Shown piece by piece: positions 24,881 through 52,157 of a stretch of 64,000 nucleotides of DNA. The first letter of the stretch is position 1, and each line of letters starts with the position of its first letter. This DNA comes from Akkermansiaceae bacterium (GTDB lineage: Bacteria; Verrucomicrobiota; Verrucomicrobiia; Verrucomicrobiales; Akkermansiaceae). Both the position numbers and the translations under genes were made by a program. Below the pieces are notes generated by a model, which had not been told where the DNA came from, did not search any database, and was given only the letters and a program-made list of their open reading frames with translations. Location of the stretch: positions 2,651,226 to 2,715,225 of the forward strand of contig CP059069.1 of assembly GCA_017798145.1 (NCBI GenBank). Reading direction: 5' to 3'.

Positions 24881-24900
24881 TGTCACGGGAGCAGGTTACA
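24881..24900. promoter_or_regulatory. palindromic operator candidate, site 1 (TGTCAC-N8-GTTACA)
   Basis: TGTCAC GGGAGCAG GTTACA, one base from a perfect 6-8-6 palindrome. It is centred about 50 bp upstream of the pseudopilin-sulfatase operon. It is one of six such sites between 24.8 and 51.5 kb. Confidence 0.6.
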
Positions 24901-25015
24901 AGGCCGGCGTGGCCTCCGGGATGCCCTTGCGATCTCAGGTGACGGAAAGCGCCGGACTGATCCCGGCCCGACGCTTACTGTGGATTCGTTTGTCAGATCT
25001 GGCTGAGAAAAGACC

Positions 25016-25756
25016 TCAGCGGCGACGGCGGAGCAGGAAACCTCCTCCTAGGAGCGCGAGCAGCGCGGAGCTTGGCTCGGGAACGACACCGAAGACAGCA
25101 AGGTTATCCAGAACCGTGTCATTGCCGCTGCTCGCGGCCGTCCCTCCGGAGAAGGCCAATCGGAATACAACCGACCCACCTGCATCCAATGTGCGGTCGG
25201 CCAAACCGGTCAGGTCGATGTCGAAATTATGGGGGGTGGCGTTGGTCAATGGTTCGTTACCCAAGATCACCAGAGTCCCATTCGACACCGGACCGGTGGT
25301 GATGACTCCCGACTGCACCGAAAGCGCCCACAATTCAGGGGCATTGGACCGGATGGCGGCGGAATCGAAATTGAAGCTGGTCAGTTCGATCGCGAAGCCG
25401 ACCGTCGAGGTGATGGTGAAATCGATGTGCCCGCTGTAGCCATTGGCCAACGCGGTTCCCTCGCCAAGGGCGACCGTTGTGCTTGGACCGGGGATGCCCG
25501 TCCCGGCAGCCACCGATCCCCAGGTTCCGTCGTTGCTTGCGCCGTAGTTGGCGGTGGCGTTGTTCCAGTTGAACCATGTGCCGCCGGCGTCGGTCGTTCC
25601 GACCCCTTGGCCTGAAACGGAGTTGGTTGTGTTCGCGTTCCAGGTGTCTGCGCTGACTTCGGTCCAGACATCCCAGCCGGCCAATAGCACGGCAGCGGAA
25701 CCGTTTGAGGAAAGAGCCGCAACGGCACCGATTGCGAGTAGGAATTGTTTTTTCAT
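25016..25756 (-). CDS. PEP-CTERM sorted secreted protein
   Basis: 246 aa. A signal peptide at the N-terminus (FLLAIGAVAALSSNGSAAV) is followed by a beta-rich, Thr/Gly/Asn-rich body and a C-terminal PEP-CTERM signal (VVPEPSSALLALLGGGF, then LLRRRR). Such tails are recognised by an exosortase for surface or matrix export in EPS-producing bacteria; no exosortase is in the window. It diverges from a second PEP-CTERM gene at 25985, with a palindromic operator between them. Confidence 0.85.
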   Translation of the reverse strand: MKKQFLLAIGAVAALSSNGSAAVLLAGWDVWTEVSADTWNANTTNSVSGQGVGTTDAGGTWFNWNNATANYGASNDGTWGSVAAGTGIPGPSTTVALGEGTALANGYSGHIDFTITSTVGFAIELTSFNFDSAAIRSNAPELWALSVQSGVITTGPVSNGTLVILGNEPLTNATPHNFDIDLTGLADRTLDAGGSVVFRLAFSGGTAASSGNDTVLDNLAVFGVVPEPSSALLALLGGGFLLRRRR

Positions 25757-25857
25757 GGTATGGATTTTGATGGGTTTGTTTCATTTGGCTCCAAGCGAAC
25801 CGGACGCACGGCAACCATCTGGTTAGATACTGTGGGCAAAAAACCGAAATTTTGTAA

Positions 25858-25877
25858 TGTCACTGGAATCCGTGACA
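25858..25877. promoter_or_regulatory. palindromic operator candidate, site 2
   Basis: TGTCAC TGGAATCC GTGACA, a perfect 6-8-6 palindrome in the divergent region between two PEP-CTERM genes. It is followed by TGACAGGGCG, a context resembling that of site 4. Confidence 0.7.
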
Positions 25878-25984: not shown

Positions 25985-26902
25985 ATGAAAAATTCGGTAC
26001 AAACTGCGGCCGCCCTTGCGCTCGCATCGACATCGGTGTTGCAGGCAGCTGTCATCACCCAAACGGGTCCGCAAACTGCGGCAAGCGGAGATGATTGGAA
26101 TGTGCCCGCCCTATGGTCGAACACTGCTGCGCCTTCGGGCGGCAACACGTATGTGATGAACGCCCGCATCAACACCCCCGACACACCCGCCGCCACAGCG
26201 GTGTTCGGCGGAGACTCCCTTCGGGTGGATTCCGGCGGCAACCTGCAGGTGCGCGCCAGGAACGAAGCCGCCGATGCCGTCACCGTGAACCTGGTTCTGA
26301 ATGGGGGACAGGTCGGGCTGAACAAGACGACTTCCAACTACGCCCAGCTTGAAGGCACCGTCTCGGTGACCGCCGACTCGACGTTCAAAATGTTCCAGAA
26401 CGCGACCACGCAGCGTAACCTAAGGCTGAACTCGCTGGTCAGCGGGGGAAGCGGAAACGTCCTTTCATTGAACGGAACCTCCGGATTCACCGGCCCTGGC
26501 AACGTCTTTGTCGAGGTTCTGAACTCATCCAACTCCTTTGCGGGAACTTGGCAGATCAATGACATCAGGGCGATCTTCGGATCCGTCGGCGCAACCGGAA
26601 GCGGCGGTTTCAATTTACTGACGGATGGCTATCTCCGGATCAATGACAGCTGGAGCGGCTTCATCTCCGCCGTCAGCGGTTCGGAAGTCAACGTGGGCGG
26701 AACCAACACCTACACGCTCAACGGCCTGACCGTCGATGGCAACGCGTTCACGACGGCGGGCACCTATACTTCCAGCGAACTCAATCTGGCAACCGGCACC
26801 GCGATTTTCAGCGGACCCGGTTCCTTTGTTGTCGTTCCGGAGCCATCCTCACTGGCTCTTCTCGGACTTGGCGCCCTCGGCCTCATGGTTCGCCGCCGCT
26901 AA
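25985..26902 (+). CDS. PEP-CTERM sorted secreted protein
   Basis: 305 aa from the ATG at 25985, where the signal peptide begins (KNSVQTAAALALASTSVLQA); the longer open frame upstream crosses the operator. The body is a beta-helix-like, Gly/Asn/Thr-rich repeat (autotransporter-barrel-like L-x-N-G-G-x-V style). The end is VVPEPSSLALLGLGALGLM followed by VRRR. It is probably a surface or matrix protein. Control from the 25858 palindrome is likely. Confidence 0.85.
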   Translation: MKNSVQTAAALALASTSVLQAAVITQTGPQTAASGDDWNVPALWSNTAAPSGGNTYVMNARINTPDTPAATAVFGGDSLRVDSGGNLQVRARNEAADAVTVNLVLNGGQVGLNKTTSNYAQLEGTVSVTADSTFKMFQNATTQRNLRLNSLVSGGSGNVLSLNGTSGFTGPGNVFVEVLNSSNSFAGTWQINDIRAIFGSVGATGSGGFNLLTDGYLRINDSWSGFISAVSGSEVNVGGTNTYTLNGLTVDGNAFTTAGTYTSSELNLATGTAIFSGPGSFVVVPEPSSLALLGLGALGLMVRRR

Positions 26903-27226: not shown

Positions 27227-28048
27227 CTATGGCTGCCACCCTTTTACGAAAGCCCGGTCACTCTTGCTGAGTGTGGAGATCGGGATCTCATAGCGCCTGC
27301 CGCTTACCATGACGATCAAGGTGTCGCCGTCTTTCCCGATCAGTTGCGCTTCGATGACCTTGCCTTCGGCATTTGTGAGCTTGCGTACGGTAACGGGCGC
27401 AAGTCTTGACCCCTTGGCTCCATCCGAGTCACGCCTGCTTTCCGGTGGGTTTTCCCGCTGGATTTCGCGCAGGTCATGGTCTTCGTGAAACAGCAGGATG
27501 CGGTCGATGTTGAAGTTCTTGGATCTCCCTGAAATCGTGAGTTCGTAGGTCTCCCCTTGTTTGAGGCGATAGAGGACGGGGTATTTGATGTGGTTCACAT
27601 CGATCTGCGTGGCCCAACCCCAGCCTTTGGGATCCCCGCCGAACATCTTGGTGTCGCTGCGGAGTATTTTGAGAGGGGCCTCGCCGCCTGCTTCGAAGTC
27701 ACCCTTGAGCGCGATGTAGCAGTCGTTGGAAATGTCCTCGCGTTTTGACTCGAGGCGTTTCCTGGCGCGCAGGATGAGCTGATAGGTGCCGGGCTTGTTG
27801 ATTTTGAAATGGTATCCGAGCGGTGAATCGGCAGGGCCGGATTCGGTCTTGTTGCCGGTGAATTCCAGGTGGCATTCGCCCTGGTAATCGGCGACGTCGG
27901 TCTTTTTCTTCCACTTTCCCAGCCTTGAATCGGTGGATTCCGCCTCGATGGTCACTTTGCCCCCCTGTTCCAGAAACACGGTCTCGCCGGCCGCGAAGAC
28001 CGTGGGCAGCAGCAGTGCGAGTGATCGGATTGCTGTTCTTTTCGACAT
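27227..28048 (-). CDS. secreted carbohydrate-binding-like protein with C-terminal SHD1-like domain
   Basis: 273 aa from the ATG at 28048, at the start of a signal peptide (KRTAIRSLALLLPTVFAAG). Residues 25-190 form a CBM6-like beta-sandwich (VTIEAESTDSRLGKWK, ISNDCYIALKGDFEAGG, YELTISGRSKNFNIDRILLF). Nearly the same order of motifs opens the 1678-aa protein at 41659. The last 60 residues (VRKLTNAEGKVIEAQLIGKD, then RRYEIPISTLSKSDRAFV) match the SHD1-type domain also found at 39853 and 46703. It probably binds glycan or anchors to a partner. It lies 63 bp after the gene at 28112 in a two-gene operon. Confidence 0.75.
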   Translation of the reverse strand: MSKRTAIRSLALLLPTVFAAGETVFLEQGGKVTIEAESTDSRLGKWKKKTDVADYQGECHLEFTGNKTESGPADSPLGYHFKINKPGTYQLILRARKRLESKREDISNDCYIALKGDFEAGGEAPLKILRSDTKMFGGDPKGWGWATQIDVNHIKYPVLYRLKQGETYELTISGRSKNFNIDRILLFHEDHDLREIQRENPPESRRDSDGAKGSRLAPVTVRKLTNAEGKVIEAQLIGKDGDTLIVMVSGRRYEIPISTLSKSDRAFVKGWQP

Positions 28049-28111
28049 GGGTTCAGTGCTGGTTGGACGGCAAAACACGCGAGGCCTGCCAGAACATGAA
28101 GGGAGATTCGT

Positions 28112-29101
28112 TCAGCGGTCCGTGCGTGTTCGATCCCGGAGAAATTCATCCGTCGCTTTCCTTGAGGCGCGGCCTTCGAAGGTTTCCCTTTGCTCGATCA
28201 GCGAGAGCGCGGCGCCCGCCAGGGTGTTCTGGTATTTTTCTCCCCCAGCATCCGTTTCCGGATAGAAGTCGGGCCGGGGGTTGTAGGTGATGGGCAGGAA
28301 GATCACATCGTCTCGGCGGAGAAAATCGCCACCCATGATCCTGTCGCTGGCGAGCCAGTGGACGAACTTCCGCAATTCATAATAGAGATCCTCCTTCTCG
28401 GGTGCCTGGTTGAACGGAACCTGGAAAACCAGCGGCTTGTTGCGGGTTTTCGGATCGGTCGTGACCCACTTGAGGAATTCCTGTCGACGCCCGTTGTTGC
28501 CATACCATTTTTCCGGGGAGCCTTCGATCAGGATCACATCCACATTTGGATCGAGGCACATATCATGCTCGGCCTTGCTGTTGTTGCGCACGTTCCAACA
28601 AAGCTTCACGGGAGGATGGCCTTTCTTTTCGTGTGCCCTGAGCCAGTCCTTGGCCCGCTTGATATCCTGCGGTGTGTAGCTGTAGGCCTCCTTCGAACGA
28701 TCCTCACCCGGCTGTGAACCGTAGAGCATGACCCACCGGATATGGGCGTTCAGCTTGTCCTTTTGCTTGAATATCGTCTCCAAGCGCTCTTCGAGGGTTC
28801 CCTTGCGCGTCACCGAGCCGTAGTTCCAATGGGTTCTCGGAATCGCGGCCATGCCGTTGTTCTTCGCCTTCTTGAATTGCGCGACGGTGGCTTTCCATGT
28901 GGCCGCGGTGTTCCTCTCCTTGGCCTGCGTGTCGCTGTCGTTGAGGCTGAGCCCCTCGCTCCTGTTGGCGATTTCCTGCCAAAGCCGGATCTTCTTCGCC
29001 GCGTCCGGCGGAATGTATGGCAGGGCGCTGAACACCTCGTAGGCCGCCGCAGGAGCGATCAGCGCGGCGCAGGTTATGAAAAGTCTTGGAAGGGGATTCA
29101 T
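28112..29101 (-). CDS. secreted protein of an unnamed family, possible glycoside-active barrel
   Basis: 329 aa from the ATG at 29101, with a signal peptide (LPRLFITCAALIAPAAAYEV). No known family is recognised. It shares a domain with the first 320 residues of the 1751-aa protein at 30954: AYEV at the mature start, V-(K/R)-L-(C/M)-W-N-V-R-N-N-S, V-D-(V/L)-x-x-I-E, I-F-(L/M)-P-(I/V)-T-Y-N, and L-S-L-I-E-Q-R-x-x-F-E-G-R near the end. Alternating strands and helices with conserved Trp, Asn and Glu suggest a TIM-barrel-like enzyme, by inference. It is divergent from the ECF sigma gene, with an operator candidate between them. Confidence 0.6.
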   Translation of the reverse strand: MNPLPRLFITCAALIAPAAAYEVFSALPYIPPDAAKKIRLWQEIANRSEGLSLNDSDTQAKERNTAATWKATVAQFKKAKNNGMAAIPRTHWNYGSVTRKGTLEERLETIFKQKDKLNAHIRWVMLYGSQPGEDRSKEAYSYTPQDIKRAKDWLRAHEKKGHPPVKLCWNVRNNSKAEHDMCLDPNVDVILIEGSPEKWYGNNGRRQEFLKWVTTDPKTRNKPLVFQVPFNQAPEKEDLYYELRKFVHWLASDRIMGGDFLRRDDVIFLPITYNPRPDFYPETDAGGEKYQNTLAGAALSLIEQRETFEGRASRKATDEFLRDRTRTDR

Positions 29102-29180: not shown

Positions 29181-29200
29181 CGTCACGGAAACAGGTGACA
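29181..29200. promoter_or_regulatory. palindromic operator candidate, site 3
   Basis: CGTCAC GGAAACAG GTGACA in the 172-bp divergent region between the genes at 29101 and 29274. The bases after it (TGTGCCCTTT) are also found just after site 5. Confidence 0.65.
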
Positions 29201-29273
29201 GATTTCGTGTGCCCTTTGCTCCATCATTCCCGTCTATTCTGATGAACGCGATCGTCCATCACCAAAAAGACCG

Positions 29274-29795
29274 ATGACAAAAGAGGAACTCACAGAATTG
29301 GTTGAAGCCCATCAGGCGGAATTGTTCCGCTACCTGAGGTTCATCGGCGCCGACTATTCGTCCGCCGAGGATCTGCTGCAGGAAACCTACCTCCGGGCGT
29401 TCCGGGCGAAGGCGGCCCCCGGCCTCCACGATTACAATTCGCGCCGCGCCTGGCTCAGGAGGATTGCCCACAACCTTTTCATCGACCACTGCCGCAGGCG
29501 CAGCCGCTCCCCCGTGAGCTTCAGCAGCGAGCAGGCGGAAACGGCCGAGGAGTTTTGGAAGACCGGGTTTTACCAGCATGACGAAGGCTTCGGCTGCATG
29601 GAAGCGCTGGAGCAGTGCATGAAAGGACTCTCCGCAAGCCAGCGCGAGCTGGTCGATGCCTTCTACGCCGCTCGGCGCTCGCGCGAGGACATCGCGGAAT
29701 CGCTGGGCATTTCGCCCAGCGGGGTGAAGGCGTCCCTCAGGCGCATCCGCGCGGCGCTCGCGGGCTGCATCGAACAGAAACTTTCCCAGGCATGA
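29274..29795 (+). CDS. ECF-type RNA polymerase sigma factor
   Basis: 173 aa. Region 2 includes YSSAEDLLQETYLRAFRAK and the -10-contact helix (RRAWLRRIAHNLFIDHCRRR). Region 4 is a C-terminal HTH (SREDIAESLGISPSGVKASL). There is no region 1 or 3, as usual for ECF factors. Its stop overlaps the start of the FecR-domain gene (ATGA), so sigma and anti-sigma are coupled. It probably drives part of the surrounding secretome. The family resembles the planctomycete/verrucomicrobial ECF groups found beside FecR-domain genes. Confidence 0.9.
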   Translation: MTKEELTELVEAHQAELFRYLRFIGADYSSAEDLLQETYLRAFRAKAAPGLHDYNSRRAWLRRIAHNLFIDHCRRRSRSPVSFSSEQAETAEEFWKTGFYQHDEGFGCMEALEQCMKGLSASQRELVDAFYAARRSREDIAESLGISPSGVKASLRRIRAALAGCIEQKLSQA

Positions 29796-30901
29796 AACCG
29801 GAAGACCACCAGGACCACCTCGTCGATATGCTCTTGTCCGAATTGCTCGGCAAGGAAAGCCCGCCCGATGTGCGCGAAAAGGTTCTCGAAGCGGCGGAAC
29901 GGCTCCCCCGACCTTCCATCGTCCGGATCCACCCCGGTGTGAAGCCGGGAAGGCGTTCGAGGAGGCCGGTTTTCGCGCTGGCGGCAATCGTGGCGCTGCT
30001 GGGGATTGCGGGCGCGCTTGTTCAGCTTCAGCGGATCTCGAATGCGCGCACTCCCGAGATCACGGAGTTCTCAGGTGAAATCGACCACAAGGGCGGCCGC
30101 ATTTCGCCCGGCGAGAGCATCGCCACGGGCAAAGGCTCAACGGCGGTGCTGCGCTACCTCGATGGCACGGTGCTCAGGCTCGCTCCGGATACCGGGATCG
30201 TGGTGGAGGAAACTTCGCGATGGGATCGCTCCAAGCTGATCGAGCTTGTGTCCGGGAGTGTGGAGGCCGTGGTTTCGCCACAACCCGAAGGCCGCCCCAT
30301 GGTTTTCAGATCCGGCAACACCCACGCCGAAGTGGTGGGCACGCGCCTCAGCTTCAGTGCGGAGGAAGGGCGCGTTCGCCTCGAAGTGAGCAAGGGCGCG
30401 GTGCGTTTCACTCCCGGCACGGCGGGTGGCGGGTTCGTCGTCGGTGCGGGACACTTCGCGGAATCGGACAAGTCGGGTCTCCGCCATGGGAAAATCCCCG
30501 TTCCCGGAATCACCGGATTCACCCTGATGAATGCGGAAACCGACAAGCCGATCCGCAAGCAAGTGCTCGTCAGCGGGGAAACGATTTCCCTCTACTCGCT
30601 TCCGACCCGAGAGATCAACATCCGTGCGGACTACCGGGGTGCGCCCCCGGCTTCGGTGAAGATCAGTGTGACCCGCCATGACGGAACCCCGACGGGACTC
30701 CCGCCGCATGCCGAAAAGGATCAGGAGCATCCCCCCTTCTTTGTCGCCGGCGACCATTGGCCGGAAGGGCGGCCGGAAGACTGCTCCGCATGGACTCCCC
30801 GCCCGGGCAGCTACCGCATCAGGGCCGAGGCCGCATACACCGACGAACGCCGGGCAAACCCGGGCGAAGCCCTCGAAATCGATCTGCGGATCACCGAGTG
30901 A
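29792..30901 (+). CDS. FecR-domain anti-sigma / surface-sensing protein
   Basis: 369 aa from the ATG at 29792, overlapping the sigma stop by 4 nt. A short cytosolic part of about 50 residues (the likely sigma-binding region) is followed by one transmembrane helix (PVFALAAIVALLGIAGALV). A FecR domain comes next (GRISPGESIATGKGSTAVLRY, GSVEAVVSPQ, HAEVVGTRLSFSAEEGRVRL). The C-terminal 120 residues form another extracytoplasmic module (GITGFTLMNAETDKPI, INIRADYRGAPPASVKI). The same module occurs inside the secreted 1678-aa protein. It should hold the sigma factor until an outside cue arrives. Confidence 0.85.
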   Translation: MKPEDHQDHLVDMLLSELLGKESPPDVREKVLEAAERLPRPSIVRIHPGVKPGRRSRRPVFALAAIVALLGIAGALVQLQRISNARTPEITEFSGEIDHKGGRISPGESIATGKGSTAVLRYLDGTVLRLAPDTGIVVEETSRWDRSKLIELVSGSVEAVVSPQPEGRPMVFRSGNTHAEVVGTRLSFSAEEGRVRLEVSKGAVRFTPGTAGGGFVVGAGHFAESDKSGLRHGKIPVPGITGFTLMNAETDKPIRKQVLVSGETISLYSLPTREINIRADYRGAPPASVKISVTRHDGTPTGLPPHAEKDQEHPPFFVAGDHWPEGRPEDCSAWTPRPGSYRIRAEAAYTDERRANPGEALEIDLRITE

Positions 30902-30953: not shown

Positions 30954-33900
30954 ATGAAACAGATAAGACAATTTGCATGGCTCCTAAGCTTCGGCCTATG
31001 GGCGGCCAACGTCTCCGCCTACGAAGTATGGATGGGAACCCACCTGATGCGCAGTTCCGACGCTTCCAATCTGTCCGAATGGTCCCTGGCCGCGTCACAA
31101 ATGGATGGCATCAACATCAACCGTGCCCCGAACGATACCGAACCGGCGTCCAACAACGACTGGAGGACGATTTTCAAGCAGTTTTCCAATCGGAAACATT
31201 CCATGTCCGAGGTCGCACGCTCCGAGGTGACAAGGAATCCCGTTAGCGTGGACGAACTCGCATATGACGATATCGACCAACGGCTCAGTGAGATTTTCGG
31301 GTTTGAAAACACCTTCGGATACGATCTGGACATCCTGATGTTCTACAACGAACGGGGCACGTATCGTGGAGTTGAGTATCTTTATGAATGGACACAAAAA
31401 GAGGTTCAGCACATGCGCGAATGGCTCGACACGAATGGTCGCGCGGATGTCAGGCTGATGTGGAACGTGAGGAACAACAGTGTCGAAAACCAGAACTGGG
31501 CGAAAAATCCCTTAGTTGATCTCGTAGAGATCGAATCAAGCACCACGGCGTTCCTCGCAAACACCAACAACCAGATCACCTTTTTTACCTGGTTTTGGAA
31601 TAACTCGGTAACCAAAAACAAGGAAATCGCCCTGCAGATGCCGCGCGTGCTTCCGGGGGATCCGCTAGATCAATTTCAGGGATCGCGCCGCGTGGCCAAA
31701 AAGGTCGGTGACATCATCGGATACGGAGAGGACGGAATGCGTAGCAACCGGCTCATCTTCATGCCAGTCACCTATAACGACAACTACCTGTATAGACCCG
31801 AGACGGTTTCCAACGGCACGTCCTATACCGACACGATGACCAGTATCTGTCTTTCGCTGATCGAACAACGCCAGCTCTTTGAAGGCCGCCTCCCGCAGCT
31901 ACCTACGAATGCGCTCGCCGACAGCAAGGTTCGGACCATCCCCCCCACCATCACCGCCATCGCGAACCGGACGACGAATGAAAACACCCAGACACCGGCC
32001 ATCGCTTTCACCGTAGCCGATGGTGATACCGCATTGACCGCCCTGACGGTCAGCGCGACCTCATCCAACCCCGTGCTGACCCCCGCCTCCGGGTTCGTCT
32101 TCGGAGGCTCCGGGAAGAACCGGACGGTAAAAGTCACTCCCGCTCCCGGCCAAATGGGCACCAGCGTCATCACCGTCACGGTCAGTGATGGATACTGGAG
32201 CGCCAGCTCATCCTTCACCCTCTCCGTCGGCACCACTCTCGCAAGTGGGAGCACCGATGCGGCCATCACCGATGCCCCTGCAGTCACTGATCAAACCGCT
32301 ACCACCGTCCTCCTCGGTTCCGGAGGAAACAGCCCATACACCGAGCGCTGTGCCGTATATGCTTTCCAGCTTCCCAGCCTCGGGAATGTTGCCAATCCTT
32401 TCAAAAGCTCATCCTTCACCTTCAACCTGGAGGACAAGCAAGGCACGCTGACGAACAATGACCTCTACGGCTTGGGACGCCGGGACACAGGCACCGTTCT
32501 CGTAACGGATTACTATGGTAAAACAGCCACCGCAGACCCAACCGACGCCACCAGGCTTCAGACGAACATCCTCACCAATGGCACTCCGCTCGGACTCGTC
32601 AGCACTTCCGCCGCCGGAAACACCGCGTTGCTCAGCTACCTCAACGCCCAATACGCCTCCGGTGCGGGTGCCGGAAAATATGTCTTCCTCCGCTTGAATA
32701 CCACCGGCCCGAAAACCGGGATCAACCGCGCGACGATCACCATGTCCGAAGGTGGAGAAACCAGCCCGACGGACACCCGCCCGCGCCTGTTTTTCACCAC
32801 GAACTCAGCTCCGACGATTGCCAGTATCGGCAACGTCACCACCAATCAAAGCACCGCGACCTCAACCATTCCCTTCACCATCGGGGACGTGGAAAGCACG
32901 GCCAACTCCCTCACCGTCACCGCCACCTCGTCAAACACCGCGTTGATCCCAAATGCGAGCATCGTCCTTGGCGGATCGGGTACCAACCGCACATTCAGGA
33001 TCACCCCCACCGCCGGAGCTACCGGCTCCAGCATCATCACGATCCAAGTGAGCGATGGTGTCCGCACCACCAGCACCACATTCACCATCAATGTCTTCAA
33101 TGCCATTCTCGGTGAACTGGCGGATGCAGAGATCGCACCGAACCAGAGCACCGCGCCATTTACCTACGGCATCCAGAACCTTTCCTGGACTTCTCTCTCC
33201 GCAGGCACCTCCGGCGGAAACGTAGGCCGGGATCGCAGCGTGGTGTTTCCTTTCCTGCTCCCCAGCCTCGGCTCGATTTCCAATCCTTTTTCCGCCGTAT
33301 CCTTCTCCGCGAATCTGGAGTCTTTGGACAATAGCCCGCTCGGAAATGTACGCATCTACGGCCTCGGAAAACGCGATACCGCCACCGTTCTGACCACTGA
33401 TTACTACGCTGCCACCTCCACTCTGGACACCACGGACGCCACCCTGATCCAAACGAATTTCATCCCAAGCGGCACCACGGGAACTGGCTTGAAAAATACC
33501 GACAACGCCGGCGACGCAAAGCTGATCGCCTACCTTAACGCACAATACGCCGGCGGCGCGGGCGCAGGGAAATACGTCTTCCTCCGCCTCGCGACGGACA
33601 CACCGCAGACCGGTGGTTCCAGCCGTTTCCGGTTCACCAGCGCCGACGGAGCCGTTGCCGCATCGAACGCGGCCATCCGCCCCCAGATCGGATATCTCGC
33701 CGCCAGCGGAAACCTCCCGCCGACCATATCCTCCATCGGAAACCGCAGCATTCCTGTGGATACAAGCAGCGGGGAAATCCCCTTCACCATAGGCGATAGC
33801 CAGACATCTCCGGCCTCACTGATCCTAACCCAGTCCTCCAGCAACACCGCCCTCGTCCCGGAGGAAAACATCGTCTTCGGCGGCAGCGGAGCCGAGCGCA

Positions 33901-36246: not shown

Positions 36247-36266
36247 TGTCACGTGTTTCAGTGACA
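36247..36266. promoter_or_regulatory. palindromic operator candidate, site 4
   Basis: TGTCAC GTGTTTCA GTGACA, a perfect palindrome (7-bp arms, TTGTCAC/GTGACAA), 83 bp upstream of the PEP-CTERM gene. The sequence after it, AGACAGCCG, resembles the context of site 2. Confidence 0.7.
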
Positions 36267-39613: not shown

Positions 39614-39856
39614 ATGAAGTTCACACCAAACCACCTCCTCCCCGTTGCGGCAGCCTTCCCTTTCATCGCAGCCGGACCCGCATCCGCAGGGAACGTAGGC
39701 GTCGGTGACCTAAAGGCGGAACAACTCGCCAATCCCGTCCAACTCGACATCGTGAAGCCACGCCTGAGCTGGCAACTCAAGCCCACCCGACCCGACGAGC
39801 GGATGCGACATCGTGTGGGATCCGGACCTTATCACTTCTCAATCCCCAATCCATGA
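39614..39856 (+). pseudogene. GH78 rhamnosidase remnant: N-terminus joined to the extreme C-terminus
   Basis: 80 aa. A signal peptide (FTPNHLLPVAAAFPFIAAGPASA) and the conserved GH78 opening (VGDLKAEQLANPVQLDIVKP, then RLSWQL) run straight into VGSGPYHFSIPNP, which resembles the last residues of GH78 proteins (compare AGSGLYHF at the end of the remnant at 40953-41475). More than 800 residues seem to be missing between them. Its TGA overlaps the ATG of the next gene (ATGA), so it could still act as a leader. Confidence 0.6.
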
Positions 39857-40950: not shown

Positions 40951-40952
40951 GC

Positions 40953-41521: not shown

Positions 41522-41541
41522 TGTCACGAAAACAAGGGACA
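41522..41541. promoter_or_regulatory. palindromic operator candidate, site 5
   Basis: TGTCAC GAAAACAA GGGACA, one mismatch from the consensus, 118 bp upstream of the 1678-aa gene. TGTGCCCTTTT follows, shared with the context of site 3. Confidence 0.6.
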
Positions 41542-41658
41542 AACTTCCCTGTGCCCTTTTCGCCCTCGAATTCGTTTAATCCAATGAAACCCATCTCAGG
41601 GGGATCGATCCCATTTTCCTGACTCCCCCCAACAATCCCGATAAGCCAAACCCAACCC

Positions 41659-44600: not shown

Positions 44601-46695
44601 CACCTTCAGCCTCGATGGCGACGACGACAATGTGTTTCCCCACCTGATGAAATCCACGGCCACGGCCTATCAGAACGTCGCGGACAACGCCCGTTGGGAG
44701 AATGCCAACGGCGTCTATCACGACCGCTTCGACGTATCCAAGATGGCGCAGTGGGAGCGCATCTTCGAATACGCCGGCCGGATGGGCATGTATCTCCATT
44801 TCAAGACCCAGGAAACGGAGAACGACCAGAAAATGGACGGCGGGGCCTTGGCGCGCGAGCGGAAGCTGTATTACCGCGAGCTGCTGGCGCGCTTCGGCCA
44901 CCACCTCGCCTTGAACTGGAATCTCGGCGAGGAAAACACCAACACAACCGCCCAGGAAAAGGACTTTGCACAATGGTTTTACGACAACGATCCCTACCGC
45001 CACAACATCGTCCTCCATACCTTCCCCGCGCAGAAAACCACGGTTTACACCCCCCTGCTCGGAACGGCATCGAAACTCACCGGCCTGTCGCTCCAAACCG
45101 ACCAGGCGGATTTCTCGAACGTTTTCCCCGACACGCTCACCTGGGTCCGGAACTCCGCCAACAGCGGCGTCCCATGGGTCGTCGCCTGCGATGAGCCCGG
45201 CGATGCCCAGCACGCCCTTCGCCCGGTGGGCGACGAGGGCAACAGCTGGACCGATGGCCGGAAGAACGCCCTATGGGGGCATGTGATGGCCGGGGGCGCC
45301 GGGGTGGAATTCTATTTCGGATACGGCCACGCAAACTCCGACCTCACCTGCCAGGACTACCGCTCACGCGATGGCTTCTGGGATTACTGCCGCCACATGC
45401 TCGGTTTCTTCCGCGACAACGGCGTCCCCTTCCAGGACATGGCGAACGCGAACACCCTCGTCAGCGGGTCCGGGAACAATGCGAACCGCTGCCTCGCCAA
45501 GGCGGGCGAAGCCTATGTCGTGCAGCTTTACAGCGGTGGGAACCACACCCTCGATCTCAGCGCGGCTCCCGGCGATTTCTCTGTCCGTTGGTTTGACCCG
45601 CGCAACGGCGGGACGCTCCAACAAGGTTCGGTCGCCGCGGTCACGGGCGGAGCCACGGTGTCGCTCGGGACAGCACCCTCCGCGACCACCTCGGATTGGA
45701 TCGTATATCTGGCAAAAAGCGGCGGCGGAGGCGACACAAGCTCCGGCGTGATGCATGGACTTCCCGGCGATGCGGATGTGCGCGAGGATAAAACGATTGT
45801 GAACCTGGCTGCGGCCAATCTCGTTCCGGGCAGATCGGGATCCAACCCTTCATACAACCGCTCCACCCACTTCGTTTTCGAGCTCCCCAATCTCGGGATC
45901 GTGGCGTCCCCCTTCCTCTCCGCAACCCTTGGCTTCAATGTGGAAACCGTCAGCACCGCGCCCCCGGGAGTCGATCTCTACGGTCTTGGAAAAAGGATCA
46001 CGGCGGATGTTTACGGCACAGACTACTATGGGGAATCCGCAACCCCGGATCCCACCGATGCTACGCTGATCCAAGGCAACATCCTCAACGCCGGCACAGG
46101 GACGGGTTTGAAGACCTCCAACGCCAGCACCGCCCTCGCCTCCTATCTGAACGCGCAGTATGATGGGGGAAACGGAATCGGGAAATACGTCTTCCTCCGG
46201 CTGAGCACGACCGCTCCGGTCCCCGGCCTGGAACGGCACTTCGTCACTTCCGCGGACGCGACCGGAACCAACGGCCCGCGGATCAACTACACGGCGGTGA
46301 CACCGCAGGATTTCGATTCGTGGCTCGGCTCATTCCCCTTCGCACCGGGCGCTGACCTCACCTCGGGCGGAGATCCGGATCACGACGGGCTGAGCACATG
46401 GTTCGAGTATCTCTTCGGCCTCGATCCCTCGGACTGCAGCTCGGTGAACCCGGTTACCATCGGGCTCTCCCAGTCGGACGGAACCTTCACCTACACGCGG
46501 AGGAACCCCGCGCTCACCGGCATCACGGACTATCAGGTCTGGGTCTCGGAAAACCTCTCCGGATGGGAGCACGACTCCGCCGCCCTGCAAGCCACGGGAG
46601 ACATCGGGGAGATCCAGGTGGTGGCCGTCACCCTGTCCGGATCCAAGCCTCTCACCGCCCCGTCCTTTTTCATCCGGGTGAGGGCTTCGAATTAG
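41659..46695 (+). CDS. giant multidomain secreted glycan-active protein
   Basis: 1678 aa with a signal peptide (ISLAILATASLSFSQT). Domains in order: CBM6-like, 20-210 (as in 27227-28048); beta-sandwich, 215-370; nucleoside-hydrolase-like, 375-630 (LAYVSDGNSPDPDDIGANA, with its Asp cluster); Ig-like, 635-755 (TGFTLINADTDQPIG, shared with the FecR-domain protein); DUF5060-type, 758-870 (VTGELKKWHKLTFSWAGP). These are followed by a TIM barrel, 884-1290 (YLSDKGLNAFSFLTF, LALNWNLGEENT with a likely catalytic Glu); DNRLRE-like, 1364-1545; and a C-terminal DPDHDGLSTWFEYLFGLDPS module. DUF5060 normally precedes glycoside hydrolases. The exact substrate is unknown. It is followed by the BNR_4 gene after 7 bp. 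Confidence 0.75.
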   Translation: MKRISLAILATASLSFSQTYQESGGLVVMETENTPSALGLWQKQTSLSGHSGTGYLQFLGNTYETGPATSPLEYTFKINTAGLYYLHLHCAKETHDGRTDVANDCYVRVEGDYNAGPGPYTSHGNNASLALLQSNTKYFGGATNAWKWENGQNSSGGAGNLDPGGSTNKRVAAYDFKAGQTYKLVVSGRSKFFRINRIVFRHTSTSAATAQNLSTPESGTISGNLAYQATADFPNITGGTVPYYKDNTRNALAIDASVVANRDKYARAQRTFDGASGTYDVRITALRELDGECTYRFLVNGTVVGTAQNNTTGTDYAPQEHVFSNITIPSGATIAVESNTHSNGLVPETGGFAWARGRWTTLTLSTSVASLVQPPAGRLAYVSDGNSPDPDDIGANAVVFGLLGATGLQDRLVHFSHSCDLVKASNISAADELRRQNKLHAICGEGVGYFGPFPNLAAYYNCRTDQAAAVNNLRDAINASTASDPLWIIEAGEPDIIAYALQAATASKRQYVNVVSHHPANDNSGDFFTWQQVLDFGVIEHQIGDQNVNLQVAISSGLWDWAEGHSNPAIVWILDQLKYAEADGVVAFQTNKYDCSDAGMLYWWITGASNGGNRLSTPVEIKSMLLNDPTSAAQSVTGFTLINADTDQPIGALSDGDTLDLSLLPTVNLNVRADTSPTTVGSVRFAYDGNATYKTETTAPYALGGDTNGDYNPWTPTLGAHTLTATPFTGAGATGTAGTPLAINFNVVDNGGGTGATVTGELKKWHKLTFSWAGPSSSETAAANPFSDYRLNVTFSHPATGKTRTVPGYFAADGNAAETSAQSGNVWRAHFAPDETGEWTYSVSFRTGTDIAVSTVAAAGSSAGFFDGGSGTIQIAATDKTGRDLRGKGLLEYVGKHHLRFAETGEYFLKAGSDAPENFLAYDDFDDTPNVGGRRKSWSPHAADYDVASAAQFTWQGGKGSELLGAVRYLSDKGLNAFSFLTFSLDGDDDNVFPHLMKSTATAYQNVADNARWENANGVYHDRFDVSKMAQWERIFEYAGRMGMYLHFKTQETENDQKMDGGALARERKLYYRELLARFGHHLALNWNLGEENTNTTAQEKDFAQWFYDNDPYRHNIVLHTFPAQKTTVYTPLLGTASKLTGLSLQTDQADFSNVFPDTLTWVRNSANSGVPWVVACDEPGDAQHALRPVGDEGNSWTDGRKNALWGHVMAGGAGVEFYFGYGHANSDLTCQDYRSRDGFWDYCRHMLGFFRDNGVPFQDMANANTLVSGSGNNANRCLAKAGEAYVVQLYSGGNHTLDLSAAPGDFSVRWFDPRNGGTLQQGSVAAVTGGATVSLGTAPSATTSDWIVYLAKSGGGGDTSSGVMHGLPGDADVREDKTIVNLAAANLVPGRSGSNPSYNRSTHFVFELPNLGIVASPFLSATLGFNVETVSTAPPGVDLYGLGKRITADVYGTDYYGESATPDPTDATLIQGNILNAGTGTGLKTSNASTALASYLNAQYDGGNGIGKYVFLRLSTTAPVPGLERHFVTSADATGTNGPRINYTAVTPQDFDSWLGSFPFAPGADLTSGGDPDHDGLSTWFEYLFGLDPSDCSSVNPVTIGLSQSDGTFTYTRRNPALTGITDYQVWVSENLSGWEHDSAALQATGDIGEIQVVAVTLSGSKPLTAPSFFIRVRASN

Positions 46696-46702: not shown

Positions 46703-48352
46703 ATGATCAGTCACCTCTCAGTTCCAAAATCCAGGGCGAATTTCCCGAAAATCTTCTCCGTAAACCGGCTCAGGACTTTTTGGCCATGCGCCATACTTCA
46801 TCTGATCCTCCCAACTTTGAAGGCCGATGAGCTCAAGGTGCTTCAGCAGACGACACTCGACACAAAAGCCCTCACATTCGCCGACGGCGAGAAGACCAAG
46901 TTCGGCAACTTCCCGAACGGGATCACCCACCAGCAGTTTCCCCTGAGCACCTACCGCGGATACCAGTATGCCATCTACTATGACCACGCGCGCCGCGTCT
47001 GTGTGGGGCGGCGCAAACTGCCGGCTGGTGAATGGGAGATCATCCGTTTCAGCGACTACAGGATCACGAACAACGACACCCACAATGTCGCGGTTCTCGG
47101 GATCTGCGAAAACGATGGCACGATCCACCTGACATGGGATCACCATGTTTCCGACCTCCATTACCGGAGGTCGAAGATCGGGGCGGCGGACAAACCGGAA
47201 TCCACCCCATGGACCGCCGAGCTGTTCGGACCCATCACCAACGTTCTCGACGGCATCGGGCCGGTCACCGAGGTGACCTACCCCCGTTTTGTCCGCATGC
47301 CCGATGGCAATCTCATGTTCTACCACCGATTCGTCACCTCGGGAAACGGCGACAGCTTCATCCGCGTGTATGACGGGAAAAAGAGCGAATGGATGAACAA
47401 CCGCGGCAAGTTCATCGACCGGCAGATCGGCAATTACAAATTCAACGGGAAAACCAGCCGGTACCGCTACGCCTACATCAATGGCATCGGCTACGCGGGC
47501 AGGCGCCTGCATGTCTCATGGGTGTGGCGGGACAGGTTTGAGAAAACCAGCGCCACCAACCAGCACGACCTCTGCTACGCCTACAGCGATGACGACGGCC
47601 TCACCTGGAACAACTCCGACGGCACGCGGATCGCGGTCACCGGCAAGTCATTCATCAACATCGATTCCCCCGGGCTGGTCGTGCATCCGATCCCTCCCGG
47701 ACGGAGCCTTACAAGCCAGAACACCCAGTATGCCTATCCGGATGGGAGCATCCATGTGATCCTGAACCACGAGCGGGAGGGGGGCAGCGGCGGCAGGGGT
47801 TACCACCACCATTGGCGGGACGCGGCGGGCAAGTGGCATGTCGAGTCGCTTCCTTTTTCGGGATCCCGGCCTGAGCTGGTCGGCGATGGCCAGCGCAACC
47901 TGTTCGTCGTCCACACCGCCGGAAAAGATCTGCGAATCCTCAAGGGGGTGCCGAACGCGAACCTTTCGGCCTGGTCCTGGTCCCTGATCCACAAATCCGG
48001 CAGCCCGGGCACCGGAGGCGATGGGCAGATCGACCAGTCCCGCTGGCAAAGCGAGGAAATCCTATCCGTTCTCCATCAGGAACTGCCCAAGACCATCCTC
48101 GACTACGGAAACCGCGCGCCGATCGACGGAATCCCCGCTCCCCTGCACGTCACCGATTTCCTGTTGTCCGCCCGCGAGACCCGGAAACTGACGAGCCGCG
48201 AGGGTGAGGCGGTGGAGGCGGAGCTTCTCGATGTGCAAAGCGGAAACCTCATCTGCATCGTCGGAGGGAAAATTATGGAAATCCCTATTTCCCAACTCAC
48301 AGGCGAGGATGTCGCGTTCCTGAAAGAGTGGTATCGCCGTCGTCATCCCTAG
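46703..48352 (+). CDS. BNR_4-type beta-propeller protein with SHD1-like tail
   Basis: 549 aa. The N-terminal signal (FWPCAILHLILPTLKADE) precedes a propeller of about 400 residues with the BNR_4 pattern: QFPLSTYRGYQYAIYYDH, NDTHNVAVLGICENDGTIHL, TWDHHVSDLHYR, VTYPRFVRMPDGNLMFYHR, YAYSDDDGLTWNNSDG. The BNR_4 superfamily includes ulvan lyases of PL24/PL25 and related proteins; the His-rich TWDHHVSDLHYR region would hold catalytic residues in those. The last 60 residues (TRKLTSREGEAVEAELLD, MEIPISQLTGEDVAFL) are SHD1-like. It is co-transcribed with the 1678-aa gene. Confidence 0.75.
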   Translation: MISHLSVPKSRANFPKIFSVNRLRTFWPCAILHLILPTLKADELKVLQQTTLDTKALTFADGEKTKFGNFPNGITHQQFPLSTYRGYQYAIYYDHARRVCVGRRKLPAGEWEIIRFSDYRITNNDTHNVAVLGICENDGTIHLTWDHHVSDLHYRRSKIGAADKPESTPWTAELFGPITNVLDGIGPVTEVTYPRFVRMPDGNLMFYHRFVTSGNGDSFIRVYDGKKSEWMNNRGKFIDRQIGNYKFNGKTSRYRYAYINGIGYAGRRLHVSWVWRDRFEKTSATNQHDLCYAYSDDDGLTWNNSDGTRIAVTGKSFINIDSPGLVVHPIPPGRSLTSQNTQYAYPDGSIHVILNHEREGGSGGRGYHHHWRDAAGKWHVESLPFSGSRPELVGDGQRNLFVVHTAGKDLRILKGVPNANLSAWSWSLIHKSGSPGTGGDGQIDQSRWQSEEILSVLHQELPKTILDYGNRAPIDGIPAPLHVTDFLLSARETRKLTSREGEAVEAELLDVQSGNLICIVGGKIMEIPISQLTGEDVAFLKEWYRRRHP

Positions 48353-48419
48353 GCACCGGATTCCCCATGCTTTTACTTTTGCCCCAATCGAACGGTAAGC
48401 CTAGCGTGGACTAACCCTA

Positions 48420-51407
48420 ATGCCGTCGCACCTGTCATTCGTTCTTGTCGCTTTGCTGACGATCACCGGCCTCAGGGCCGGGGGTGAGTCGTCGGGGTGG
48501 CTCCACAGGGCATGGCAGACCGAGGACGGACTTCCGGACAACAGCGTCAACGGCATCGCCCAAACTCCCGATGGCTTCCTCTGGGTGGCGACAAATGGGG
48601 GGATACTCCGTTTCGACGGAAACGAATTCAGCCCCCTGCCACTGCGCAACATCCCGAATCCCTCCAGCAGTGAAGTCCATGCCATGTTCCTCGACCGGGC
48701 CGGGCAGCTGTGGATTGGCATGGAAAAGGGATCCCTGATCCGTATAGGCAAGGACTCGTTCCATGCCTTCACGCAGGAGGAAGGGCTTCCGAACAAGGCG
48801 GTGACAAGCATGGCCGATGATGCGGAAGGCAGCCTCTGGGTTGCCCACACCTCAGGGATTTTTCAGGTCAGTTCGGACCAGATCAAACTTTTTGGGGAAG
48901 GAAACGGCATACCCCATGGGAGCAACCCGAACCTGGCTTGCGATGCCGGCGGGCAGGTCTGGTTCGCATGCGGCGGCAAGCTCGGACGACTGAGCGACAA
49001 AGGTTTTGAGCTCGTCCGCGATTTCGGGGAGGCATCGCTCAGGATCGCTGCAGCCCGTGACCAGGGGCTTTGGCTCGCCGCAGGCCTGGAGCTGATGCGG
49101 CTCGACGACGGAGACAAGATCCGGACTGTTGCCTCACTTCCCAAGGCCACCGATGTCACCGTCCTTTTCGAGGATAGTGACGGCGCCACATGGATCGGCT
49201 CCGACGGCCTCGGGCTCTTCCGTTTCAAGGACGGCCTGTTGGAAATCGTGCCCACATCCATCGGATGGGTGGACTGCCTGACCCAGGACCGGGACGGCAA
49301 CATCTGGGCTGGCACCAATGGCGGCGGACTGAACCTGATCACGGCCCGCACGGTGGAGTTGCTCGAAAAGGACAAGGGACTCCCATTCGCCTCCGTCCGC
49401 TCGGTCGCCTTCGACAATTCCGGGCGGATCTGGGTGGTAAGCCCCGCAGGTGGCCTTGCCTACAAGGAGTCCGGGCAATGGCAATTTTTCGAAAGCGGTG
49501 ACGATGCGAATGGCTACAACTGCGTGGCCGCCGATCCCAAGGGCCGGATCTGGATCGGAACCCGGACCGGAGGCCTCAAACAGCTCGATGACGGGAAGCT
49601 GACCCATTTCGGCAAACGCGACGGACTCGCTGGAATATTCGTGCGGTCGATCCTGCCTGCGAAAAACGGGGACGTATGGATCGCCACCGACAGCCCCAAC
49701 CAGCTCAACCGTTTCCGGGATGGTAAGATCACCAAGCTCTCGCACCCGGGGACGATCATGGCCATCCGTGCCATGGCGGAAGGTGCGGACGGCACGGTCT
49801 GGGTGGGGACTGCGGATGGGCGGCTTCTGCGGGTGGAAGGGGACAGGCTTGTGAACGAGGACGCCGTGGAGGCCACACCGTCGATCCGGACGCTCCACAC
49901 GACGGCCGACGGATCCCTCTGGATCGGGTTTTCAGGCGACGGGCTCGGATGCCTGAAGGACGGGATTTATCGGAGATACACCACAAAGGACGGGCTCTTC
50001 GATGACTATATCTCGCAGATCGAGGACGATGGGTCGGGAACCCTCTGGATCGCCGCGAACCGTGGCCTTTTCACGGTGTCTTTCGACGCCCTCCCCGAAA
50101 GCCCTGATGCGGATTCGCTGGAGCCGAGGAGTCGGGCGTTCGGACGGAACGAAGGCCTGCCGGGATTCCGGGCGACCCATAACTATGGCCCGGCATCATG
50201 CCGGGGCCCCGATGGCGGCCTTTATTTCACGACCAATATCGGCCTGCTGGTCGTTCATCCGGAGAGACTGCACGAGGCGGCGCTCCCACCCCCTCTGGTC
50301 ATGGAGCAGGTGACGATCGATGGCGAGGTCAGGGCGATCTATCGGTCGCGCTCCATGCTTCCGCCGGATCCGGGCGGGAAACTGAGCGACCTGAGCCGGC
50401 CGCATCCACGGATCGAGGTGCCGCCCGGCCATGACCGTGTGACAATCAGCTACGCGGCCCTCGGCCTGGGTTCACCCGAGAATGTCGAGGTGCGTTACCG
50501 GCTCAAGCCGCTGGACACGGACTGGCAAAAGCCCGACAGCAGGAATTTCACAAGCTTCACGCGCCTTGCTGCCGGCAGGTATGAGTTCCAGCTCATAGCG
50601 TGCAACAGCGAAGGGATCTGGAACCATGGCGCGAGAACACTCGAAATCGTCGTCCATCCGTTTTTCTGGGAAACCTTGTGGTTCAGGATCGGCGGCGGCG
50701 TGCTGACGGTCATCGCCTCCGCGGGACTCGTATTTCTGACCCTGAGGCGCAGGCATCGCGACCAACTCCAGCGCATGGCCGCAAGGAGTGCGCTTGAGGA
50801 AGAGCGAAGCCGCATCGCGCGCGACATCCATGATGACCTCGGCGCAAGCCTCACCCGGATCAGCCTGCTCAGCCAGCCATCCGGCGGAGAAGAACGCGAT
50901 CCGGTGCTCGACCAGATCCAGACCACCACCCGCCACCTCATGCGTTCCATGGACGAGGTTGTTTGGGCGATCAGTCCGGAGCACGACACATTCGACGACC
51001 TGGCCAGCTACGTGAGCGCCTACGCCCAGGATCTACTCAGCATCGCGGGCATCCGTTGCCGCCTGGACATGCCCATGGATCTGCCGGAATACAGCCTCTC
51101 GTCCCAACTCCGGCACAATCTCTTCCTGGCTTTCAAGGAAGCGCTCAACAATGCAGTCAAATACTCCAACGCCAGCGAGGTTCGGATTTCCATCTCGATA
51201 GCCGACGGCGTCTTTTGCCTAAAGGTCGCGGACAACGGCGGCGGCATTGACGCGAACTCCCCGGCAGAACCCGCCCGGCAGAACGCCGGGAGCGGCCTCC
51301 AAAACATGACCGGCCGGATGAATGAGATCGGGGGAAGTTGCACCGTCAGCAGTTCCGCAAATGGGACGCTCGTGGAGTTCAGCATCCCTTTCAGAGGCAC
51401 GCCTTGA
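48420..51407 (+). CDS. two-component propeller sensor histidine kinase (Reg_prop / Y_Y_Y / HisKA_3)
   Basis: 995 aa. After a signal peptide, about 600 residues form two propellers of Reg_prop repeats (AQTPDGFLWVATNGGILRFD, EDSDGATWIGSDGLGLFRF, DPKGRIWIGTRTGGLKQL). A Y_Y_Y domain follows (VTISYAALGLGSPENVEVRY). Then one transmembrane helix (near 752-772), a HisKA_3 domain with H804 in IARDIHDDLGASL, and HATPase_c (NGGGIDANSP; GSGLQNMTGRM). It has the sensor plan of hybrid two-component systems that detect oligosaccharides, but without the fused receiver/AraC part. The response regulator is the next gene, 64 bp on. Confidence 0.92.
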   Translation: MPSHLSFVLVALLTITGLRAGGESSGWLHRAWQTEDGLPDNSVNGIAQTPDGFLWVATNGGILRFDGNEFSPLPLRNIPNPSSSEVHAMFLDRAGQLWIGMEKGSLIRIGKDSFHAFTQEEGLPNKAVTSMADDAEGSLWVAHTSGIFQVSSDQIKLFGEGNGIPHGSNPNLACDAGGQVWFACGGKLGRLSDKGFELVRDFGEASLRIAAARDQGLWLAAGLELMRLDDGDKIRTVASLPKATDVTVLFEDSDGATWIGSDGLGLFRFKDGLLEIVPTSIGWVDCLTQDRDGNIWAGTNGGGLNLITARTVELLEKDKGLPFASVRSVAFDNSGRIWVVSPAGGLAYKESGQWQFFESGDDANGYNCVAADPKGRIWIGTRTGGLKQLDDGKLTHFGKRDGLAGIFVRSILPAKNGDVWIATDSPNQLNRFRDGKITKLSHPGTIMAIRAMAEGADGTVWVGTADGRLLRVEGDRLVNEDAVEATPSIRTLHTTADGSLWIGFSGDGLGCLKDGIYRRYTTKDGLFDDYISQIEDDGSGTLWIAANRGLFTVSFDALPESPDADSLEPRSRAFGRNEGLPGFRATHNYGPASCRGPDGGLYFTTNIGLLVVHPERLHEAALPPPLVMEQVTIDGEVRAIYRSRSMLPPDPGGKLSDLSRPHPRIEVPPGHDRVTISYAALGLGSPENVEVRYRLKPLDTDWQKPDSRNFTSFTRLAAGRYEFQLIACNSEGIWNHGARTLEIVVHPFFWETLWFRIGGGVLTVIASAGLVFLTLRRRHRDQLQRMAARSALEEERSRIARDIHDDLGASLTRISLLSQPSGGEERDPVLDQIQTTTRHLMRSMDEVVWAISPEHDTFDDLASYVSAYAQDLLSIAGIRCRLDMPMDLPEYSLSSQLRHNLFLAFKEALNNAVKYSNASEVRISISIADGVFCLKVADNGGGIDANSPAEPARQNAGSGLQNMTGRMNEIGGSCTVSSSANGTLVEFSIPFRGTP

Positions 51408-51416
51408 GAAACGGCG

Positions 51417-51436
51417 TGTCACGGGTATTCGTGACA
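51417..51436. promoter_or_regulatory. palindromic operator candidate, site 6
   Basis: TGTCAC GGGTATTC GTGACA, a perfect 6-8-6 palindrome that starts 10 bp after the kinase stop and ends 35 bp before the response regulator ATG. Its position suggests autoregulation of the regulator gene. Confidence 0.7.
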
Positions 51437-52152: not shown

Positions 52153-52157
52153 CAAGA

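Follow-up and report, generated by a model that had tools for sequence, protein, structure and literature searches.

Six palindromes as candidate operators of a NarL-type two-component regulon in a polysaccharide locus of an Akkermansiaceae bacterium

The stretch of DNA considered here (the window) comprises 64,000 nucleotides of an Akkermansiaceae bacterium, positions 2,651,226 to 2,715,225 of contig CP059069.1 (assembly GCA_017798145.1), and contains a polysaccharide locus at 22595-52152 in which six copies of the palindrome TGTCAC-N8-GTGACA stand between genes. The most likely role of these palindromes is that of operators in a two-component regulon private to the locus, in which a dimeric NarL-type response regulator would bind each site and activate every unit of the cluster, including the gene for its sensor kinase and its own gene. 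The initial annotation of this DNA had proposed such a co-regulated set with the NarL-type protein as the presumed binder, and on the sequence comparisons described below the regulon is upheld and the binder is very probably right.

A pattern scan of the window finds the six sites just as they had been described, with 6-bp arms and an 8-bp gap, three being perfect (starts 25858, 36247 and 51417) and three carrying one mismatch (24881, 29181 and 41522). The genes in this work were called with a simple hexamer caller, not a standard gene finder, and by these calls all six sites are intergenic, as had also been claimed, in a window where intergenic DNA accounts for about 14% of the sequence. Allowing two mismatches gives eight matches against 1.75 expected, a number reached in none of 100 shuffles, and the two further matches (31213 and 60068, two mismatches each) lie inside called genes. 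Among the inverted-repeat families in intergenic DNA of the window, the six sites rank first, with a score of 51 against a maximum of 24 in eight shuffles.

Site 1 (24881..24900, TGTCACGGGAGCAGGTTACA) stands before a minus-strand pseudopilin-sulfatase gene pair, with a -10-like TATGAT on the minus strand at 24859-24854, and site 2 (25858..25877, TGTCACTGGAATCCGTGACA), followed by TGACA, lies between divergent PEP-CTERM genes, 101 and 107 nt from their starts. Site 3 (29181..29200, CGTCACGGAAACAGGTGACA) separates the gene of a secreted protein from that of an extracytoplasmic function (ECF) sigma factor, again divergent, at 79 and 73 nt; since the flanking genes diverge at sites 2 and 3, each of these sites may serve two promoters. 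Site 4 (36247..36266, TGTCACGTGTTTCAGTGACA) is 82 nt ahead of the third PEP-CTERM gene, site 5 (41522..41541, TGTCACGAAAACAAGGGACA) is 117 nt ahead of a gene for a 1678-aa protein, which opens a series of genes of which the kinase gene is the last, and site 6 (51417..51436, TGTCACGGGTATTCGTGACA) lies between the kinase stop codon and the regulator ATG, 35 nt from the latter. Sites 3 and 5 share TGTGCCCTTT 7-8 bases downstream of the palindrome (about 29208-29217 and 41550-41559), which by eye is not present at the other sites and might be a second promoter element of these two.

Across the 4.39-Mb genome, 12 sites are found with at most one mismatch, six of them within the 26.6-kb stretch of the locus (0.6% of the genome), compared to a single match for the backward pattern. 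Four of the six sites outside the locus are inside called genes, one is intergenic with one mismatch and one is intergenic and perfect. The two sets differ in the central RWWY (positions 9-12 of the 20 bp), which the locus sites match at 3, 4, 4, 4, 4 and 4 of four positions and the outside sites at 0, 2, 1, 1, 1 and 1. This core was first noticed in the locus and its relatives and afterwards added to the search pattern; TGTCACNNRWWYNNGTGACA with up to two mismatches then returns exactly the six locus sites and nothing else in the whole genome, with two matches for a reversed control and three for a scrambled palindrome. The six outside sites were considered as regulon members and set aside because they lack the RWWY core, four also being within genes. 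An even spread of the motif over the genome, which would speak against a local regulon, was thus checked for and not seen, half of the 12 sites and all six with the core being here. The perfect outside copy is a longer palindrome, TGTCACAA-TCCG-TTGTGACA (L053, C1:3551299-3551318). It lies some 200 nt ahead of a gene that by eye is sigma-70-like, and is perhaps the site of another regulator. No published account of the motif was found among literature titles and abstract openings, a coverage that mostly excludes subscription papers.

The predicted binder (51472..52152, plus strand) has the Pfam matches of a NarL/LuxR-type response regulator, Response_reg (1.4e-21) and GerE (3.1e-19), and its residues E14, D15, D60, T88 and K110 are invariant among eight aligned relatives, in keeping with a receiver that has its phospho-acceptor aspartate; a Pfam scan of this protein gave no sigma-54 interaction domain. 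Its recognition helix is NTVDTYRRRIYEKLHV, in which residues 190 and 194 align with K188 and K192 of NarL (NarL 1a04; a manual count in which the chain is shifted by one), lysines reported to contact bases in NarL-DNA crystals. A role of helix alpha-9 in DNA recognition by NarL has been described (PMC4549865). The sensor histidine kinase (48420..51407, plus strand) fuses a sensor of Reg_prop propeller repeats and Y_Y_Y to HisKA_3 and HATPase_c, and its chain ends at HATPase_c. It is the only Y_Y_Y match found in its own genome, and the nearest solved relatives of its sensor are the propeller/Y_Y_Y sensors 4a2l, 3v9f and 3ott, of which the first two are presumably hybrid two-component systems (HTCS) of Bacteroides.

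Orthologous loci link palindrome and regulator. A search of 384 genomes of the class gave four, from the same family and three other genera, whose regulators are 73-75% identical to that of the window, and in 4/4 of these loci (G304, G361, G261 and G232) a palindrome lies between kinase and regulator, in the form TGTCCC..GGGACA (G304, G361), TGTCAC..GGGACA (G261) or TGTCGC..GTGACA (G232). The regulators of G304 and G361 are 99% identical, so these two loci are hardly independent. Within up to 20 kb per locus there are other intergenic TGTCAC-type sites, perfect in G304 (two), G361 (two) and G261 (one) and with one mismatch in G232 (two). Only the kinase and the regulator are common to all five loci (called proteins, blastp at 1e-10, window part 19-54 kb). 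Two held-out orthologues, G572 and G579, with regulators 79% and 77% identical, came from a subsequent search through 260 genomes of this family. A rule had been fixed beforehand, by which the regulator start should be preceded at about 33-39 nt by a palindrome in this frame, with a TA-led -10 at +31.5/32.5 from the palindrome's centre. The prediction held in both, with gaps of 35 and 35 nt to a GTG start and the -10-like elements TATAGT at +32.5 and TAGCAT at +31.5, and a palindrome precedes the regulator gene in 7/7 loci of the orthologue group, the window counted. Among 36 other genomes of the window's genus, several of them incomplete, four have one perfect site each and 32 have none, and their regulators are at most 56% identical among the matches listed. 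On another contig of G232, the sole place away from the regulator that was inspected, two sites lie 3.6 kb apart, one of them before a PEP-CTERM-like gene (Pfam score below cut-off).

More distant homologues of the regulator show the same outer frame. In an unbiased scan given no motif, perfect 6-bp inverted repeats in the intergenic DNA around homologues were counted by outer triplet and spacing, and in 75 loci (window excluded, a few being near-duplicates) TGT-N14 came first with 10 against 0.3 expected, ahead of GTC-N12 (11 versus 0.5) and GTC-N11 (11 versus 0.9). TGT-N14 was again top in 60 further loci that included the four orthologues (13 versus 0.3), occurring in eight loci of which three are orthologues. 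In the DNA adjoining 174 non-redundant regulator genes, those of the window and the orthologues included, TGTC is the commonest of the 256 tetramers at N12, with nine occurrences in eight loci against 0.25, the null maximum for any tetramer being eight. The frame TGTC-N12-GACA therefore recurs in the family, and the inner bases differ between groups: regulators with the helix TVDTYRRR go with TGTCAC (TGTCCC in some regulator promoters), YETVHTYIRR with TGTC[CA]CC, TVNTYIRR mostly with TGTC[GA]T, STVHTHIER with TGTCGGC and YWTVQ with TGTCCCTTAA. It took a comparison of intergenic DNA over entire loci to bring this pattern out; in 30 loci, the window's among them, the exact 7-bp inverted repeats ahead of the regulator were scattered with no common motif, and whole-sequence dyad scans without gene calls were abandoned, as GC-rich repeats swamped the signal.

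Some further observations concern members of this family. The unbiased count of outer triplets and spacings was also made by phylum, with loci sorted by eye into 39 taken as verrucomicrobial (including L150 and L154, labelled 'bacterium') and 41 mostly of other phyla (among which L153, a verrucomicrobium, was misplaced); in the 41, TGT-N14 is the top dyad, with 8 versus 0.9 (L164, L174, L184, L185, L193). A subfamily with the helix TVRTYVKRIC has a 17-bp frame, GTCCCC/GTCCTC-N5, in 5/10 loci (L055, L087, L105, L106 and L113). In L055, which belongs to the window's own genome (C1:1660001-1680000), palindromes at 7610, 10098 and 19807 are found ahead of the kinase, right after the regulator and in front of a large minus-strand gene. 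Near another regulator homologue of the same genome (L054, C1:1542001-1562000), near-identical inverted repeats with a spacing of about 126 bp occur at 8784-9050 and 14051-14190, of the type GGACGGCAA-N3-TTGCCGTCC and of a GGACGT type.

Operators were assigned where at least 7/8 outer bases and 2/3 inner pairs agreed and where, in addition, the core was good, the palindrome complete or the regulator near. Over 30 non-redundant loci the similarity of operators correlates with that of recognition helices (Mantel r=0.28, p=0.0002), also when receiver-domain similarity is taken into account (r=0.12, p=0.015). Among columns 160-211 with p<0.05 the largest effects are those of residues 187 (0.25), 190 (0.20) and 194 (0.13), and for regulators that are 65-80% identical operator similarity is 0.71 where residue 190 is shared (57 pairs) and 0.30 where it differs (27 pairs). 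This is suggestive of a recognition-helix code for the inner operator bases.

The placement of the sites relative to promoters was analysed with 58 sites, chosen by rule except for five added by hand (window 24881, 29181 and 41522; L245 10427; L246 10453), which gave 53 site-gene pairs with a called downstream gene and 50 after removal of near-identical pairs. In 18/50 pairs a TAnnnT begins at a distance of 31.5-33.5 bp from the centre of the palindrome; for any three offsets, 1000 shuffles gave at most 8. The peak is present without the window and its orthologues (11/33 pairs, null maximum 7) and in these alone (7/17, at +30.5 to +32.5, null maximum 4), and decoys, palindromes from these loci that equal the sites in length, have 21/458 at the peak, about twice their mean for other offsets. 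Immediately after the palindrome, TGACA occurs in 9/50 pairs compared to a mean of 0.06/50 elsewhere, and together with the palindrome's last A it makes a -35-like ATGACA, 17 bp before the peak -10. With a -10 at the peak offset the palindrome would be centred near -44 and span about -54 to -35. Activators of class II are usually centred near -44, and these counts across relatives suggest an activator-like, class-II geometry of the predicted sites. An alternative in which the right arm itself serves as the -35 hexamer was set aside, since 22 bp separate the palindrome from the -10 peak and TAnnnT at +27.5 is found in only 3/50 pairs.

Thirteen palindromes lie at most 75 nt upstream of a regulator, and 12 have a TA-led hexamer at +31.5/+32.5, not all ending in T, together with a start codon that is in frame and lies 33-37 nt behind the palindrome (for L257, 39 or 30 nt); the exception is the doubtful L202. 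Five of the 12 (L137, L243, L257, L259, L264) are cases where the caller had picked a different in-frame start, L243 and L244 are near-identical, and a looser screen of 17 rows also contains L092, L273, L282 and L290, which are without the 33-37 nt spacing and were left out by the stricter one. The start codon is mostly 6-9 nt behind the TA-led hexamer; in the window the predicted -10 element, TACAGT (51459..51464, plus strand), ends 7 nt before the regulator ATG. In Mycobacterium tuberculosis, TANNNT is centred 7-12 bp before mapped transcription starts (PMC3898074), and by this yardstick transcription would begin at or very near the start codon, so that a leaderless regulator mRNA is predicted. 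The predicted leaderless arrangement would also account for the closeness of site 6 to the regulator gene.

The same geometry has to be weighed for the opposite sign of control. With the peak -10 the palindrome would touch the -35 region, and the regulator could be a repressor that competes there with polymerase and is released on phosphorylation. We regard this as unlikely, since a centre near -44 is typical of class-II activators and NarL-type regulators mostly bind DNA after phosphorylation. It is decidedly improbable that the sites belong to another binder, be it the window's second NarL-type regulator (20019-20696), the ECF sigma factor or the product of some other gene. A distance of 4 kb separates that second gene from site 1, the ECF promoter contains site 3, and sequence alone cannot prove the identity of a binder; but neither gene is common to the orthologous loci, where kinase and regulator alone are shared, and the palindrome stands before the regulator gene in every locus of the group with inner bases that track the regulator's recognition helix. 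What had been an inference in the initial annotation, that the NarL-type regulator binds the sites, is thereby strengthened: the palindrome travels with the orthologues at the same position, in the held-out pair as well, related regulators share the frame, and the inner bases co-vary with the helix, weakly between distant relatives.

That the palindromes act as RNA hairpins, terminators or attenuators is very improbable. The inverted repeats are able to fold, RNA around site 6 reaching -15.8 kcal/mol, but z-scores for folding are only -0.9 to -1.8 (three stretches), two of the six sites lie between divergent genes, no T-run directly behind the repeats is seen by eye, the arms are conserved in sequence beyond what pairing needs, and the site of the regulator promoter is predicted to be upstream of the transcript. 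A chance cluster or mobile repeat, for which one perfect copy elsewhere in the genome might be cited, is hardly credible given that half of the sites, and all those with the core, fall in 0.6% of the genome, that six orthologous loci have a like site in the same position, and that by eye the site flanks are not copies of one another except for TGTGCCCTTT at sites 3 and 5.

Several results weigh against the operator reading favoured here. Operators could be assigned in only 38/201 regulator loci, and receiver similarity alone correlates with operator similarity at r=0.29, which means that much of the covariation is plain relatedness; for regulators less than 55% identical, operator similarity is 0.37 with residue 190 shared and 0.30 with it differing. 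In the 39 loci taken as verrucomicrobial the top dyad is ATC-N12 (10 versus 0.4), with TGT-N14 at 1 versus 0.5 and GTC-N12 at 3 versus 0.1, and beside regulators the GC-rich GCCG at N10 has a higher raw count than TGTC, 11 (without a null). In the window, TAnnnT is at the peak offset in only 2/8 site-gene pairs (sites 1 and 6), the best -10 of sites 3 and 5 being near +44, about 12 bp further, and sites 2 and 4 having weak candidates only. A perfect palindrome that lacks the core also occurs well away from the locus (genome position 3551299). In the orthologues' genomes one-mismatch sites number 15 (G304), 10 (G361), 14 (G261) and 15 (G232), with 3, 1, 2 and 4 for backward controls, and only 2/15, 2/10, 2/14 and 4/15 of them, respectively, are near the regulator; either these genomes have no concentration like that of the window or many such sites are due to chance.

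Taken as activator sites of the NarL-type regulator, the palindromes suggest the following course of events. The periplasmic sensor of the kinase, with two propellers and Y_Y_Y, would bind an oligosaccharide from a rhamnose- and uronate-bearing, perhaps sulfated polysaccharide, and the kinase would phosphorylate the regulator. A regulator dimer would then read TGTC-AC at both ends of the 20-bp site, a step strongly supported by comparison, with the outer TGTC/GACA common to the wider family and the next 2-3 bases probably set by helix residues around 187, 190 and 194. From a position near -44, beside the -35 region, it would act as a class-II activator, as the geometry in relatives supports. 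Positive feedback would result, with the kinase driven from site 5 and the regulator, whose mRNA is predicted to be leaderless, from site 6.

On that reading each transcription unit of the stretch is headed by one site, the limits of operons being judged from spacing and strand. On the minus strand, site 1 would control a pseudopilin-like protein (24054..24839, start possibly 24797) and a sulfatase (22595..24067). Site 2 lies between PEP-CTERM protein 1 (25016..25756, minus) and PEP-CTERM protein 2 (25985..26902, plus). To the left of site 3 are a secreted-looking protein with no assigned fold and no Pfam match above cut-off (28112..29101, minus) and a protein with a weak GH115_C match, below cut-off (27227..28048, minus). 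The remaining genes are on the plus strand: downstream of site 3 an ECF sigma factor (29274..29795), a FecR-domain protein that is its likely partner (29792..30901) and a 1751-aa protein with cadherin-like/Big_9 domains (30954..36209); downstream of site 4 PEP-CTERM protein 3 (36349..37050) and an alpha-L-rhamnosidase (37322..39595); downstream of site 5 the 1678-aa protein with DUF5060 and Collagen_bind_2 (41659..46695), a BNR_4 protein (46703..48352) and the kinase; and downstream of site 6 the regulator. The 1678-aa protein is likely a glycoside hydrolase, and no solved relative was found for it by sequence. The BNR_4 protein is a relative of L-rhamnose-alpha-1,4-D-glucuronate lyase (7esk, E 9e-44) and, with the rhamnosidase and the sulfatase, points to a rhamnose- and uronate-bearing polysaccharide as the substrate.

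Two other features of the window may be mentioned. Remnants of a second alpha-L-rhamnosidase lie at 39616-41475, where an N-terminus that is rhamnosidase-like by eye and a Bac_rhamnosid_C piece (1.6e-16) about 1.5 kb further on are separated by an unrelated 365-aa frame, which looks like a broken or interrupted gene. Beside the regulon is an island (53118-62845) with DUF932, a Cas4-like PD-(D/E)XK nuclease (57619-58446) and a type I DNA methyltransferase (60746-62845); the lowest GC of the window is at 52001-54000.

A broader proposal, to which we give an even chance, is that oligosaccharide-sensing kinase/NarL-type regulator pairs form a class-wide family, each with a polysaccharide locus of its own, a shared operator frame TGTC-xxx-N6-xxx-GACA, inner bases that serve as an individual address determined by two or three helix residues, and self-activation through a leaderless mRNA whose start codon is about 33-37 nt from the operator. 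The genome-wide site counts of the orthologues and the excess of TAnnnT at decoys speak slightly against it. If it is true, operators and regulons would be predictable from protein sequence alone. The related regulators and operators in one frame are a natural series in which NarL-type specificity could be tested base by base, and they offer a route to sequence-only prediction of co-regulated glycan loci in Verrucomicrobiota.

Considering known systems, HTCS carry the receiver and an AraC-type domain on one chain. The locus resembles the HTCS of Bacteroides in the propellers and Y_Y_Y of the sensor half and in its placement beside glycan-degrading genes, but differs in that kinase and NarL-type (GerE) regulator are separate genes; and, unlike polysaccharide utilisation loci of the Bacteroidota type, no SusC/SusD pair was matched among the window proteins scanned (some small frames being outside the scan). 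With NarL sites and GacA boxes the palindromes share an inverted repeat and, in their predicted binder, the same type of DNA-binding domain, although NarL sites are 16 bp in 7-2-7 arrangement (PMC4549865) and the GacA box TGTAAGCATTCTCTTACA is 18 bp (PMC4353343), in contrast to the 20-bp frame TGTC-N12-GACA with its RWWY centre.

With respect to PEP-CTERM genes, the response regulator DVUA0057 of Desulfovibrio vulgaris is comparable in its targets, which by DAP-chip include such genes and to which the comparison is confined; this regulation had been predicted from the study of Haft et al. (PMC3333781). Another parallel is PrsK/PrsR, likewise a kinase paired with a response regulator, for which one DNA motif is repeated in front of PEP-CTERM genes (PMC1569441). 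PrsR is an NtrC-like sigma-54 activator, and its motif was reported by Haft et al. 2006 only from Proteobacteria (PMC1569441), whereas the regulator of the present locus has a LuxR/GerE domain, its predicted promoters look sigma-70-like and its regulon would be one polysaccharide locus. That paper describes the regulators and motifs for PEP-CTERM genes outside the proteobacterial class as still to be found (PMC1569441), and the system described here provides a candidate for such control with a named regulator, sites and targets.

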